NCBI RefSeq assembly: GCF_000328665.1
Contig: NC_019977.1
Span: 1,976,011-2,040,010 of the forward strand
Source: Methanomethylovorans hollandica DSM 15978
Lineage (GTDB): Archaea; Halobacteriota; Methanosarcinia; Methanosarcinales; Methanosarcinaceae
DNA: 64,000 nt
Direction of reading: 5' to 3'
In this document: positions 10,537 to 15,914 of the stretch, one piece after another
Position numbering within the stretch: position 1 is the first letter of the stretch
Layout: every line of letters starts with the position of its first letter
The notes under the pieces: model-generated
Database searches by the model: none
Seen by the model: the letters and a program-made list of their open reading frames with translations, nothing else
What the model was told of the DNA's origin: nothing
Program-made: the position numbers and the translations under genes

Positions 10537-11331
10537 TTAGAGTGCCGACAAGATCTCAGCCAGACTTGCGGCCTTGTTCTTGATGACATTTCCTGCATTT
10601 AAGATCAGTTCCTTTGTGTTATAAGAGCCATCAGATTCCATCGTGAAGATGAAAGAATGTTCATCCGTTTTGACGTCTATGGCATCAATATCACAAACTC
10701 CTTCACATAGCCTGCAAAGAGTGCATTTAAGCATATCCTCTTGAGATATCTCAGCACTCTCAGTGCCCATCTTGATTATATCAACAGGACACTCAGTTAC
10801 ACATGCACCACATAGATCACAACCACTGAACTCGACCTTTGGCATGTTCTTGTAACCGCATGCTACACCTGCCTGCCATCGGGAATGCTTATTACCATAA
10901 CCCATGTGAGCTATGGCTTCAAGCACGATCTTCTGTCCTTCCCGGAGATCTGCTATCGGAATGTTTGGATCAGCAGGCTGTACCTTGTCATCAGAAGACA
11001 CAAGGTCCTGGGAATAGACTATTTTTGGACCCTCTGCACTGAGAGTAAGGGAAACTTGGCATGCCGGACAAAAATCACCACAGCTACATTCTTCTTTTGG
11101 AACAAAATCCTCCATATTTGAAGTCAGCGGGATCAGTGCCATACGCAAGCCAAGCTGCTCATCATACAGGACCGAGGTATTATTATAGATGTTAACCTCG
11201 GTAATAGCTATCGTAGGAACATCTGCCAGAGAAGCCCTACGAATGCCGTTTGCAAATGCAGCACTGGTGTTAGACAATACAAACTTTGCAGACCTATCGG
11301 AAAGCTCCAGTATGTCTACTTCCATCGTCAT
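10537..11331 (-). CDS. rpoD: DNA-directed RNA polymerase subunit D with ferredoxin domain
   Basis: A 264-residue homologue of bacterial alpha/eukaryotic Rpb3, which pairs with RpoL to seed RNA polymerase assembly. The N-terminal dimerisation part includes FANGIRRASLADVPTIAITEV. The middle domain carries an extra cysteine group (CSCGDFCPAC). It is followed by a two-cluster ferredoxin insertion: CDLCGACVTECP and CTLCRLCEGVCD, all eight cysteines intact. Known archaeal RpoD proteins of this type bind [4Fe-4S] clusters; a redox role in polymerase assembly has been proposed. It is the last protein gene of the rps13-rps4-rps11-rpoD group, 30 bases after rps11, and precedes tRNA-Leu. Confidence 0.95.
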   Translation of the reverse strand: MTMEVDILELSDRSAKFVLSNTSAAFANGIRRASLADVPTIAITEVNIYNNTSVLYDEQLGLRMALIPLTSNMEDFVPKEECSCGDFCPACQVSLTLSAEGPKIVYSQDLVSSDDKVQPADPNIPIADLREGQKIVLEAIAHMGYGNKHSRWQAGVACGYKNMPKVEFSGCDLCGACVTECPVDIIKMGTESAEISQEDMLKCTLCRLCEGVCDIDAIDVKTDEHSFIFTMESDGSYNTKELILNAGNVIKNKAASLAEILSAL

Positions 11332-12327: not shown

Positions 12328-12774
12328 TTACTTTTTCTTGCTCACACCAATGGTGCTACCACGCCTGCCGGTGGATTTTGTCCTCTGCCCTCTAACTTTA
12401 AGACCACGTTCGTGTCTAATACCACGATAACATCTGATCTTTTTAAGAGTGTTCAGGTCTTCCCTCAATGTAAGCAGGATATCCTGTCCAAGAAGATGCT
12501 TGTCCTCACCAGTCACCAGGTCCCTCTGCCTATTGAGCATCCATATAGGCATAGATTGCTCAAAACCACTAATAGCCTGATCAAGCTTTGCAATATCTTC
12601 ATCTTGCAGGTAACCTATTATTGCTAATGGGTCTATACCAGTACTTTCCACAAGGATCCTTGAGGTCCTTCTTCCAATACCAGGAATACCGGTCAGAGCA
12701 TACTCAACAGGCATTCCGCCTTTGAGGTCAGTATTCATGATACGGACAAGATGTCTTATTTCTTCATCTGCCAT
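12328..12774 (-). CDS. rps13: Ribosomal protein uS13
   Basis: A 148-residue head protein of the small subunit that contacts the A and P site tRNAs and bridges to the large subunit. The helix-two-turn-helix region [20 protein letters not shown] and the basic tail [20 protein letters not shown] are clear. It is the first gene of this transcription unit. A GGAGG lies 9 bases before the ATG, and the leader upstream is highly structured (separate entry). Confidence 0.96.
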
Positions 12775-12783
12775 AATTTATGT

Positions 12784-12850
12784 CCTCCTTAGGGATACGT
12801 TGTATCCTGTAGCCCCGGCATATTTGCCGGCACTCCCCAAAAGGGGTGGA
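12784..12850 (-). promoter_or_regulatory. Structured 5' leader of the rps13 operon: three consecutive hairpins
   Basis: Read on the minus strand, three perfect stems follow each other just before the rps13 ribosome binding site: CCCC-UUUU-GGGG (12835-12846), CCGGCA-AAUA-UGCCGG (12815-12830), and GGAUAC-AAC-GUAUCC (12793-12807). The third ends five bases before GGAGG (12784-12788). Such a compact layout next to the SD suggests translational or transcriptional control, for example by a ribosomal protein or a metabolite. The regulator is unknown. Confidence 0.55.
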
Positions 12851-12895
12851 CTGCATATCCTAACGGAATATAAACTGATGGCGCAGATAACACTT

Positions 12896-12910
12896 GTATC
12901 ATATATAATC
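12896..12910 (-). promoter_or_regulatory. Likely promoter of the rps13 operon
   Basis: The minus strand reads AGGATTATATATGATAC, a TATA box with a purine-rich element before it. Start of transcription about 25 bases downstream (near 12875) would give a leader of about 100 bases containing all three hairpins. A second TATA-like TTTATATT lies at 12866-12873 but would start inside the hairpins. Confidence 0.5.
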
Positions 12911-12995
12911 CTATTGCTGACCATGCCTAGGTGAAACCGCTTTCATTAGCCACATAACCAATAGATTAAATTGACAAAATAGATATTATCTTCGT

Positions 12996-13841
12996 ATGTG
13001 CCAAGAAATGCCTTTTGCGAACGATGAGCTGGATTTTACATATCCTTTACCTTCATACTTTGAACACTACCCTTCCTGTTACATATATGTATATAATGGA
13101 AAAGTAGTTGCAAACTCCGCCGATCTATCGGATTCTCCAAAGATCCTGCATGACTGCAGTCAAGAGATGAGAACAAAAAAGGTCGTACAATATGCAGGAG
13201 CACTTGGAGAGAAACTATGTTATGCCATAGGACTTGAATCAGAAGATAGAGTCCCTGATGGAATGCAATTATTGTTCTTAAGAGACCTTATAGGACAAAT
13301 CGATGAAAAAATACTAGCTGTTGCCGGAAGAGCAGTTCAGCTCATAGAATTTGACCTTACCAGCAGAATTTGTGGAAGATGTGGTACGCTTACCGAAACT
13401 CTTGAAGATAGAGGTAAAAAGTGTCCCAGATGTGACCTTCTCATATATCCCCGCATATCCCCTGCAATAATCGTACTTGTTATGAAAGAGGATGAAGTGC
13501 TTCTTGCCCGCTCATCCCATTTCAGGCCTGATATGTACAGTATCATTGCAGGCTTTGTAGAACCTGGAGAAACGCTTGAGCATGCTGTAAAAAGAGAAGT
13601 TATGGAAGAAGTCGGATTAAAGGTAAAAAACATAAGGTACTTCGCAAGCCAACCCTGGCCATTCCCCAATTCTCTGATGATTGGCTTTATTGCAGACTAT
13701 GAAGAAGGGGAAATAAAAGTTGATGGTGTGGAAATAATTGATGCTGGATGGTTCAGGAGAGATGAACTGCCCAATGTCCCAGGAAAGGTCAGTATATCGG
13801 GACATCTGATAGATTGGTTTGCGAGTATGAAAGAAAAATAG
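12996..13841 (+). CDS. nudC: NAD(+)/NADH pyrophosphatase, NudC-type Nudix hydrolase
   Basis: A 281-residue protein with the full NudC layout: an N-terminal domain, a four-cysteine zinc ribbon (CGRCG at about 126 and CPRC at about 143), then the Nudix domain. The Nudix box GFVEPGETLEHAVKREVMEE followed by VGL fits Gx5Ex7REUxEExGU exactly. The SQPWPFPNS motif that marks the NADH-pyrophosphatase subfamily follows. It should hydrolyse NAD(H) to NMN(H) and AMP, and may remove NAD caps from RNA. It is a plus-strand gene lying next to the rps13 promoter, so it is divergent from the ribosomal operon. No SD is visible; a leaderless mRNA or a start at the ATG at 13008 is possible. Confidence 0.9.
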   Translation: MCQEMPFANDELDFTYPLPSYFEHYPSCYIYVYNGKVVANSADLSDSPKILHDCSQEMRTKKVVQYAGALGEKLCYAIGLESEDRVPDGMQLLFLRDLIGQIDEKILAVAGRAVQLIEFDLTSRICGRCGTLTETLEDRGKKCPRCDLLIYPRISPAIIVLVMKEDEVLLARSSHFRPDMYSIIAGFVEPGETLEHAVKREVMEEVGLKVKNIRYFASQPWPFPNSLMIGFIADYEEGEIKVDGVEIIDAGWFRRDELPNVPGKVSISGHLIDWFASMKEK

Positions 13842-14281: not shown

Positions 14282-14551
14282 TTGAGAACATTTCCTTTTG
14301 TTGACAGAGAGGAATACAAGAAAATCTTCAGCCAATACTTCGTAGACTCCGGCATCATCCGCCCCTTCCGAGAACGTAACAAGAACCTAAAACCCATAAA
14401 ACAACACCAATACCCCACCGAAACCCCCCTCATAGTCGAAACCTACCGGGAAGCCAACCGGCTCTCCAAAGAACTAAAAGAACTCGGCATCTCCCGCAAG
14501 ATTACCGTGATCTCAAATGGGAATACGATGAGGTATAGCCGTGTACTCTAA
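14282..14551 (+). CDS. Short hypothetical protein, probably a gene fragment
   Basis: An 89-residue frame, partly hydrophilic, with EEYKKIFSQYFVDSGIIRPF and a charged helix YREANRLSKELKELGISRK. Codon use is rich in ATC, CCC and CTC, unlike the AT-rich PIN gene that follows, so it seems to have another origin. I recognise no family. A GC-rich stretch (GCTCGCTTCGCTC) immediately precedes it. It may be the 3' end of a larger lost gene or a mobile-element fragment. Confidence 0.35.
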   Translation: MRTFPFVDREEYKKIFSQYFVDSGIIRPFRERNKNLKPIKQHQYPTETPLIVETYREANRLSKELKELGISRKITVISNGNTMRYSRVL

Positions 14552-14636: not shown

Positions 14637-15914
14637 ATGTCTGTCTATTCAAAAGAAGAATCAACGGGCGAATCCATAGAATGTTTTTATTTATTTATGG
14701 ATACTAATTTATTTTATAGTGAAACGGTTACTTATGACATATTTGAACTAAAATTAATGACAGATCTTTTGGCAATAAGAGACAACTTTAATAAAATATT
14801 CGAAGGATATAGGACGATAAAAATCCTTATTCCTAAACTGGTTCTTGATGAAATATATTCGATTAAAACGAATATAATTCGATATGAATTTAACAATTTT
14901 ATTAAAAAAATTAAAAAAATAAATGAAAAAACACTTATAGCTTCATTAAATCACATTTATAACAATATTTATTCTAATCTTGAATCTTCAGGGAATTCTT
15001 TTATTTCACGTAATAAAATTGAGATTATACCTTATTGTGACAATACTTATTTTCCCACCATTATTGAAAAATCAATAACCAAAAGCTTGCCATTTAAGCC
15101 ATATTTTGATCAAAGAAAGAATCGTGATGTTGGTGATAATGGCTTTAAAGATACGGTAATATGGTACTCAATAATGGATTATGTGAAGAAAAAATGCACA
15201 GAGAATACCAACCATATTTTTTTTCTAACGGATAATGAAAAAGATTTCAAGTCGGATTCGACTTTATTAGAATTTAGGCAAAATACAGGAATAGATATTG
15301 AAATAATAAAATTTAAAAATGAGAACCCAAATGTTAACGATAGTGAATTCAGTCCTTTTTTAAATGTAGTTCTAGACAAATCACACATCCCAATTCCAGT
15401 AAAGTTAGAGCATGTTGATGTTTCTTATTTGATTATTAATAATAAGGTTGACATCACTTCAATTATTGTCGAGCCACTCCACATTAACATTAAGTCTGCA
15501 GTCAACTTTGAACAAAAGACAGATTCATGGGAAGAAAACAAGCCTCTATTAAATGAGAAAATAGAGAATACATTATCTAATTTCCGATTTGACGTTTCTG
15601 ATTTGAAATTTAAGTATCAAATTCCAGAAATAGTACATGTTGATTTTGATTTAGTTCAGGAAATACGTGATTTAGTTATCACTAGTATATCCCTTATTTA
15701 TAATGATGGTTTTCGAAAAATGATATTCTGTTCGATTATAGTAGATCACAACGAAGAAGAGTATTATGGATCCCGTGAGTTTGAAGAAGCTAACGACCCA
15801 TTTGTAAATAAAGCTTTGGACTTAGTCAGCGCTTATTTGGAGGACAATGGATATGGCAGCGCTCCAAGAGAATTAATTAATTTAGAATACTTTGACGCTA
15901 GTGAGATTTTCTGA
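14637..15914 (+). CDS. PIN-like domain protein (DUF4935-type), putative RNase
   Basis: A 425-residue, AT-rich gene. The N-terminal ~210 residues look like a PIN nuclease: FLFMDTNLFY supplies the first acidic residue, LVLDEIYS a second, and FLTDNEKDF near residue 200 the last acidic site, as in DUF4935 proteins. PIN domains are metal-dependent ribonucleases, often toxins or RNA-processing enzymes. The C-terminal half (about 215-425) has no family I recognise. No partner antitoxin gene is obvious. Its base composition differs sharply from the neighbouring operons, which suggests acquisition by transfer. Start may be ATG 14637 or the ATG at 14697 (MDTNLFY). Confidence 0.6.
   Translation: MSVYSKEESTGESIECFYLFMDTNLFYSETVTYDIFELKLMTDLLAIRDNFNKIFEGYRTIKILIPKLVLDEIYSIKTNIIRYEFNNFIKKIKKINEKTLIASLNHIYNNIYSNLESSGNSFISRNKIEIIPYCDNTYFPTIIEKSITKSLPFKPYFDQRKNRDVGDNGFKDTVIWYSIMDYVKKKCTENTNHIFFLTDNEKDFKSDSTLLEFRQNTGIDIEIIKFKNENPNVNDSEFSPFLNVVLDKSHIPIPVKLEHVDVSYLIINNKVDITSIIVEPLHINIKSAVNFEQKTDSWEENKPLLNEKIENTLSNFRFDVSDLKFKYQIPEIVHVDFDLVQEIRDLVITSISLIYNDGFRKMIFCSIIVDHNEEEYYGSREFEEANDPFVNKALDLVSAYLEDNGYGSAPRELINLEYFDASEIF

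Follow-up and report, generated by a model that had tools for sequence, protein, structure and literature searches.

A row of hairpins lies between the promoter and the first gene of a ribosomal protein operon in an archaeon of the family Methanosarcinaceae (genome 2.71 Mb), and the question is whether these hairpins form a conserved RNA that regulates the operon behind it and, if so, which protein it would answer to. An earlier note, made from the sequence, had read three such stems as a regulatory leader of rps13, either a ribosomal protein autoregulator or an attenuator, perhaps evolved after the gene cluster was split. We refer to the whole stretch of DNA analysed, 64,000 nucleotides long, as the window, and all coordinates are positions in it. 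The genes of the operon, which is followed after rpoD by a gene for tRNA-Leu(GAG) on the minus strand, and their divergent neighbor are as follows:

12774-12328, minus strand: rps13 (uS13), first gene of the operon (Pfam PF00416, E 6.7e-41)
12315-11755, minus strand: rps4 (uS4), candidate ligand (Pfam S4 domain PF01479, E 2.3e-12)
11742-11362, minus strand: rps11 (uS11) (Pfam PF00411, E 2e-46)
11331-10537, minus strand: rpoD (RNA polymerase subunit D), last protein-coding gene of the operon (Pfam PF01000 and PF01193)
12996-13841, divergent from rps13: Nudix hydrolase gene, NADH pyrophosphatase type (Pfam)

The operon partners recur in the loci of relatives: uS4 in all 97, uS11 in 96 (the single locus without it is a short one), and rpoD in 95. 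The product of rpoD (10537-11331, minus strand) contains 4Fe-4S ferredoxin-type domains (Pfam Fer4 and relatives). Farther along, on the plus strand, a gene at 14637-15914 encodes a PIN domain at its N-terminus (PF16289), beside a short open reading frame at 14282-14551 that has no Pfam match; the two are possibly a mobile remnant.

All three stems described in the earlier note are present in a row before rps13, on the minus strand at 12846-12793, and so is the TATA box that it had placed upstream of them; the last stem, said to stand five bases from GGAGG, in fact ends four bases from it (CUAA). The parts of the leader are:

12908-12901, minus strand: TATA box TTATATAT of the rps13 promoter, centered about 71 nt 5' of P2
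12871-12855, minus strand: P0, upstream hairpin AUAUUCC/GGAUAU with one bulged U and loop GUUA (read from the sequence)
12846-12843 and 12838-12835, minus strand: P1, hairpin CCCC/GGGG with loop UUUU (read from the sequence)
12833-12812, minus strand: P2, hairpin GU(G)CCGGCA/UGCCGG(G)GC (from sequence and covariation)
12830-12825 and 12820-12815, minus strand: core of P2, CCGGCA/UGCCGG with loop AAUA
12833-12831 and 12814-12812, minus strand: foot of P2, with pairs G12833-C12812 and U12832-G12813 and mismatch G12831.G12814
12811-12808, minus strand: linker UACA between P2 and P3
12807-12802 and 12798-12793, minus strand: P3, hairpin GGAUAC/GUAUCC with loop AAC, directly upstream of the Shine-Dalgarno sequence
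12790-12784, minus strand: Shine-Dalgarno sequence (SD) AAGGAGG, of which GGAGG is 12788-12784

The stretch from 12885 to 12772 has a minimum free energy (MFE) of -41.8 kcal/mol (z = -3.91), a stability equaled by none of 200 dinucleotide shuffles, and its MFE fold keeps P1 and P2 and replaces P3 by long-range pairing. The sequence of P0 is wholly different among genera (some Methanolobus have CAGGCAA/UUGCCUG, for instance); by eye, several other genera have a hairpin at its position that is unrelated in sequence.

Of the 46 distinct leaders of the family, 34 have their best TATA match 59-75 nt 5' of P2. The scan preferred a proximal TATA-like TTTATATT, 37-39 nt from P2, in four close relatives as well as in the window itself, while in the sixth member of the genus the best match is 72 nt away; we set TTTATATT aside, although it scores best in the window, because other genera lack it. 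As far as the sequence tells, transcription does not begin inside the stems, a start that would speak against a leader: the shared TATA box puts the predicted start upstream of P1-P3, presumably near 12879 given usual archaeal promoter spacing, and the rps13 mRNA would carry a 5' untranslated region (UTR) of about 105 nt. In Methanolobus psychrophilus most ribosomal protein mRNAs are described as having long 5' UTRs, with a mean of 165 nt (text of PMC5378194).

Covariation and conservation of the hairpins

In a MAFFT alignment of 37 sequences (32 of the family and five ANME-2 relatives) that was built without structure, 95.4% of the P2 and P3 cells are paired, and 10 of the 14 pairs have changes on both sides (5 of 8 in P2, 5 of 6 in P3). 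Doubly changed cells number 65, against 18.9 after shuffling and 2-13 in slid controls (pairing partner displaced), and none of 500 shuffles reached the observed covariation score. A weaker measure, further pair types, was reached by 19 of 500 shuffles of the 37-sequence set and by 6 of 500 of the class-wide set; class-wide, over 35 sequences, six of seven P2 pairs have changed on both sides. RNAalifold, supplied with no structure, returns P2 and P3.

Fitch parsimony on a uS13 protein tree, with ties resolved arbitrarily, yields 27 inferred compensatory double changes in P2 among 92 distinct leaders and nine inferred double changes in P3 among 42 leaders; moving the pairing partner by one to four bases leaves 0-7 and 0-2, respectively. 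For these tree counts the 5' strand of P2 was picked for best pairing, so that pairing is inflated in them, a bias from which the MAFFT-based counts are free; applied to shuffles, the same optimiser gave a mean of 3.0 against the 8.6 observed. The tree set leaves out L033, in which the parser misplaced P2, and L179, outside the set, has an uncertain P2 register. In P3, only 76% and 71% of the 42 leaders can form the two pairs on the loop side. Covariation of the stems in relatives was one check that the earlier note had proposed; the stems are conserved and carry compensatory changes, and that the hairpin array is a real conserved RNA structure, beyond chance, is established computationally.

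Within the family, 100 of 111 genomes yielded rps13, and the array (P1, P2, UAC(A/G), mostly P3, and the SD) is present in all 99 whose rps13 upstream region was read, comprising 30 plus 69 loci, with G099 left out for its split rps13 match. The motif was read by eye at two loci (L154 and L158) that the script had misanchored; the contig of L154 was parsed correctly as L019. Of 93 distinct leaders, 83 have a P1 of at least 5 bp ending just before P2 and all have one of at least 4 bp; the corresponding rates in shuffled sequences are 30% and 64%. P2 opens in the family with G-(U/C)-(G/U) and closes with GGC or a near variant; its foot pair is G-C in 92 of 92 leaders, and its internal mismatch is G.G in 76 of them, U.G in 15 and U-A in one.

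At the linker, CUA is invariant in the 37-sequence alignment and GGCUA is kept in all but one sequence, variants of the motif being GACUAC (L085), AAGCUACC (L119) and UGCUAC (L179). Elsewhere the linker reads UAU in ANME-2, and UAA or UG(C/A) in f5, f2 and f7; here f2, f3, f4, f5 and f7 are our working family numbers, of which f3 is ANME-2, f5 is, we assume, Methanoperedenaceae-like, and f7 presumably Methanothrix-like. The GGAGG of the SD is invariant across the 37 sequences. P3 is weak in Methanimicrococcus-type leaders. Next to its foot, 42 leaders have G-U (20), A-C (17) or A-U (5); G.U and A.C wobbles are isosteric, and their exchange, over only five inferred changes, hints at a structural constraint.

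Spread of the leader and history of the gene cluster

A covariance model, R1, trained on the family and ANME-2 only, matches one place in the window and one in the host's own genome. Across the host's order, R1 matched 111 of 185 genomes with an E-value limit of 0.1, chance accounting for some of the weakest matches, and there is nearly always one match per genome. In f5, where 25 genomes matched, the position before rps13 was verified in 19 and the remaining 6 are unchecked; 12 were verified by fetched sequence (on the same strand as rps13) and 7 by coordinates, these 7 including the genome of a thirteenth fetched match, which lies at a contig end and was confirmed through a second contig. 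All seven fetched matches in f3, which contributed to the model, lie upstream of rps13, as do three of five in f7, a member of another order of the class, the other two (L202, L203) being without rps13. R1 is insensitive to divergent members: it misses many Methanosarcina, with their long P2 loop, and a leader-bearing locus (L045) is among the 43 loci without an R1 match.

Of 30 f7 loci read directly, 29 carry the element and one is masked there (rps13 was found in 41 of 50 f7 genomes); the element is also present in all three f2 loci read and in three further f5 loci. Most f5 leaders lack P3, so the presumed effector part is not universal. In f4, P1-P2 is absent from all 14 loci read, and the proposed control would thus be dispensable there. 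Four of these 14 f4 loci keep GGCUAC in another context: among L252-L256, four of the five have GGCUAC (GGCUGA in L253) enclosed by CCGAG and a CUCGG that overlaps the SD, an arrangement that is perhaps a remodelled descendant of the leader. Two lineage-specific features were also seen: several f7 leaders (among L210-L239) have an extra fast-evolving hairpin in the P3 loop, and in f5 (L182-L194, L257-L259) uS13 apparently has a long N-terminal extension rich in lysine and glutamate.

Among 392 phylum-level genomes searched at E up to 0.005, the sole R1 match outside the class is in G266 (E 8.7e-4), at a coding region and without rps13. Four weak off-target matches that were read have E values of 0.014-0.054. 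The idea of a mobile or multi-gene motif was rejected, the extra matches without rps13 (L207 and L208 in the family, L202 and L203 in f7, and G266) being treated as chance. Since R1 performs poorly on divergent members, absence outside the class rests on a search for the motif itself, which found it within 250 nt of rps13 in none of 42 other loci outside the class; in six of these the upstream region spans less than 160 nt, and in six loci the short pattern occurs farther away. The leader thus seems to span the class, f4 excepted, and, judged by its spread, predates the window's genus.

The gene content behind rpoD differs between loci with and without the leader. The genes eL18-uL13-uS9 follow rpoD in none of 40 leader-bearing loci, with flanks after rpoD of about 0.1-2.7 kb (at least 1 kb in 28), versus 28 of 42 leaderless relatives, these 28 being Methanomicrobia-, Methanocellia- and Methanolliviera-type archaea. 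Such a distribution fits the earlier suggestion that the leader evolved after the cluster was split, but it does not establish the link, because of the other 14 leaderless loci 11 (mostly Methanophagales) also lack eL18-uL13-uS9; the last three end too soon. In 38 of the 42 leaderless loci, the region 50-180 nt before rps13 contains a tRNA T-loop signature, which ARAGORN identifies as tRNA-Ser in many of them, though not in several Methanophagales loci. The leader could have arisen with a rearrangement of the cluster at the base of the class; its presence coincides with the loss of eL18-uL13-uS9 downstream and of the neighboring tRNA-Ser, which offers a setting for studying the birth of a leader.

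Shine-Dalgarno accessibility and possible mechanisms

The autoregulator of the earlier note is the best-supported reading, given the covariation, the near-single copy, the position before rps13 and the distance to the TATA box; autoregulation itself is what we infer. We consider it probable that the array is a structured ribosomal protein leader (r-leader), in which P1, P2 and UAC bind a ribosomal protein and P3 with the SD acts as effector, giving translational feedback on rps13-rps4-rps11-rpoD. The RNA structure, its conservation, its near-single copy per genome, its location and the operon are established, and from there protein binding, the identity of the ligand and repression of translation are inferred steps. 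One operon-encoded protein would dock on P1, P2 and the UAC linker. With little of that protein free, the local hairpins would form, the SD would be accessible and the operon translated; in excess of new 16S rRNA, the protein would bind P1/P2, and the structure clamped by it beside the SD would block the 30S subunit.

The attenuator, the other half of the earlier proposal, fared worse. Stable hairpins in a leader are what transcription attenuation would use, but in the window P3 is followed by CUAAGGAGG, with no U-tract and with the SD four bases on, and the lack of a U-tract makes attenuation extremely improbable.

Accessibility of the SD was compared with that in shuffled leaders, folding from P1 on. 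The SD is more open than in shuffles in 27 leaders of other Methanosarcinaceae (0.71 versus 0.41) and in nine f5 leaders (0.84 versus 0.60); differences are small in the window's genus (0.54 versus 0.41), in ANME-2 (0.55 versus 0.46) and in Methanosarcina-type leaders (0.39 versus 0.32). In 27 f7 leaders it is less open (0.31 versus 0.43), because the 3' strand of P3 overlaps the SD. These values vary with the stretch folded, from 0.09 to 0.64-0.74 in L007 and from 0.30 to 0.87 in L022, and the window's own SD is 0.34 free in the whole-leader fold versus 0.73 when folded from P1. The modelled folds suggest that the leader acts on translation as an operator and that its resting state varies from lineage to lineage.

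A constitutive element for translation or stability, a 5' armour that holds the SD open and has no protein ligand, would account for the open SD of most Methanosarcinaceae and f5; we regard it as unlikely, for it leaves unexplained the invariant G-C foot, the conserved mismatch and the UAC linker, as well as the f7 SD hidden in P3. The whole-leader fold of the window points elsewhere, to an RNA thermometer or self-switching leader, in which, within the window's genus, the SD is hidden by pairing of an upstream GUUAGGAUAU with GUAUCCCUAA. The fold including this pairing has an MFE of -40.0 kcal/mol, versus -36.3 for the local fold (a difference of about 3.7), and leaves the window's SD 0.34 free; complementarity reaches z of -1.7 to -2.9 in five of six genus members; and the text of PMC5378194 reports, for a cold-adapted Methanolobus, that 5' UTRs are long and that a stem predicted for an Hsp20 gene would mask its SD. 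Yet the mean complementarity z over 39 leaders is 0.03, outside the genus only L091 reaches -1.7, and in the sixth genus member z is -1.1 and the long-range fold is not favoured, so that we find a thermometer quite improbable. A conserved long-range switch that hides the SD was rejected, as only the window's genus and a single further leader (L091) show it.

The feedback leader that we prefer might work through a local switch, a more specific proposal that we hold to be doubtful. The true SD would compete with an SD-like GGA in the 5' strand of P3 for one UCC, and the ribosomal protein at P1/P2/UAC would shift the balance. In one resting state, expected for most Methanosarcinaceae and ANME-2, the UCC would sit on the decoy GGA with the SD open; in the other, expected for f7, two f2 loci (L240, L241) and one f5 genome (L257), the anti-SD would pair straight to the SD. 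It faces the SD directly in those f2 loci and that f5 genome. The GGA/UCC of P3 is not absolutely invariant, and CCC or UUC in some relatives argues against a strict anti-SD role.

Candidate ligands and known leaders

For the r-leader that we consider probable, uS4 is a guess by precedent as to the ligand, with uS13 nearly as likely and uS11 possible. That the same leader instead binds uS13 is quite conceivable, if somewhat less than an even bet: its gene lies directly downstream, and the leader's GGGCUAC occurs three times in the host's own 16S rRNA, all within 1130-1181, a region that we take to lie in the head and to be contacted by uS13. This shared 7-mer was picked post hoc, and by the same scan other 7-8-mers of the leader occur elsewhere in 16S rRNA; in f3, f5, f2 and f7 the motif is mostly just GGGGCU(A/G), and the covariance model of the leader has no match to 16S rRNA. 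Mimicry of rRNA was indeed rejected, the best plus-strand R1 score at the host's 16S locus being 4 bits with filters off, with only short k-mers shared. As convincing rRNA mimicry is lacking, uS13 stays a close rival and uS11 possible. The nearest gene is described as a poor predictor of the ligand of an r-leader, and a protein already known as a leader ligand as the better guess (text of PMC7247131); the former weighs against uS13, and the latter favours uS4.

To our knowledge, few cis-regulatory RNAs are known in archaea. The nearest bacterial counterpart is the alpha-operon leader of Escherichia coli, which we take to be Alpha_RBS of Rfam (RF00140), bound by S4. Like the archaeal leader it precedes the S13 gene of an operon that also encodes S11, S4 and an RNA polymerase subunit, and the proposed logic is the same; it is a pseudoknot, whereas the archaeal leader consists of hairpins in series. 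A scan of the window with Rfam 15 at gathering scores returned two tRNAs and no Alpha_RBS; on 12600-13000 it gave only a meaningless snoRNA sR41 (E 9.9, overlapping the gene start), and on the leaders of 14 relatives only tRNAs.

S4-type leaders, with S4 as the predicted ligand, are described before bacterial rpsM-rpsK-rpsD-rpoA operons in Clostridia and Fusobacteriales (Eckert and Weinberg 2020, PMC7247131). As there described, they occupy the corresponding operon position in another domain of life, and by eye the GUAA of the Firmicutes and Fusobacteriales leaders is not conserved here. The same paper reports archaeal r-leaders for S15, eL15 and L4, which are likewise structured and covarying but belong to different genes, and its Table 1 has no archaeal leader for S13, S4 or S11. 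In an archaeal k-turn leader, L7Ae is proposed, in the texts of PMC5539422 and PMC6298567, to repress its own mRNA, the same idea of self-repression with another protein and gene. A literature search, the supplements of PMC7247131 and PMC5378194 aside, thus yielded archaeal leaders for S15, eL15, L4 and L7Ae and none for the rps13 operon. Most likely, then, the rps13 leader is an undescribed family of r-leader, a switch by which a ribosomal protein lowers its own production. It would control an operon for uS13, uS4, uS11 and an RNA polymerase subunit, the three ribosomal proteins being the candidate ligands; and should the ligand prove to be uS4, bacteria and archaea would control their versions of this operon with the same protein but through unrelated RNA structures, a case of convergence.
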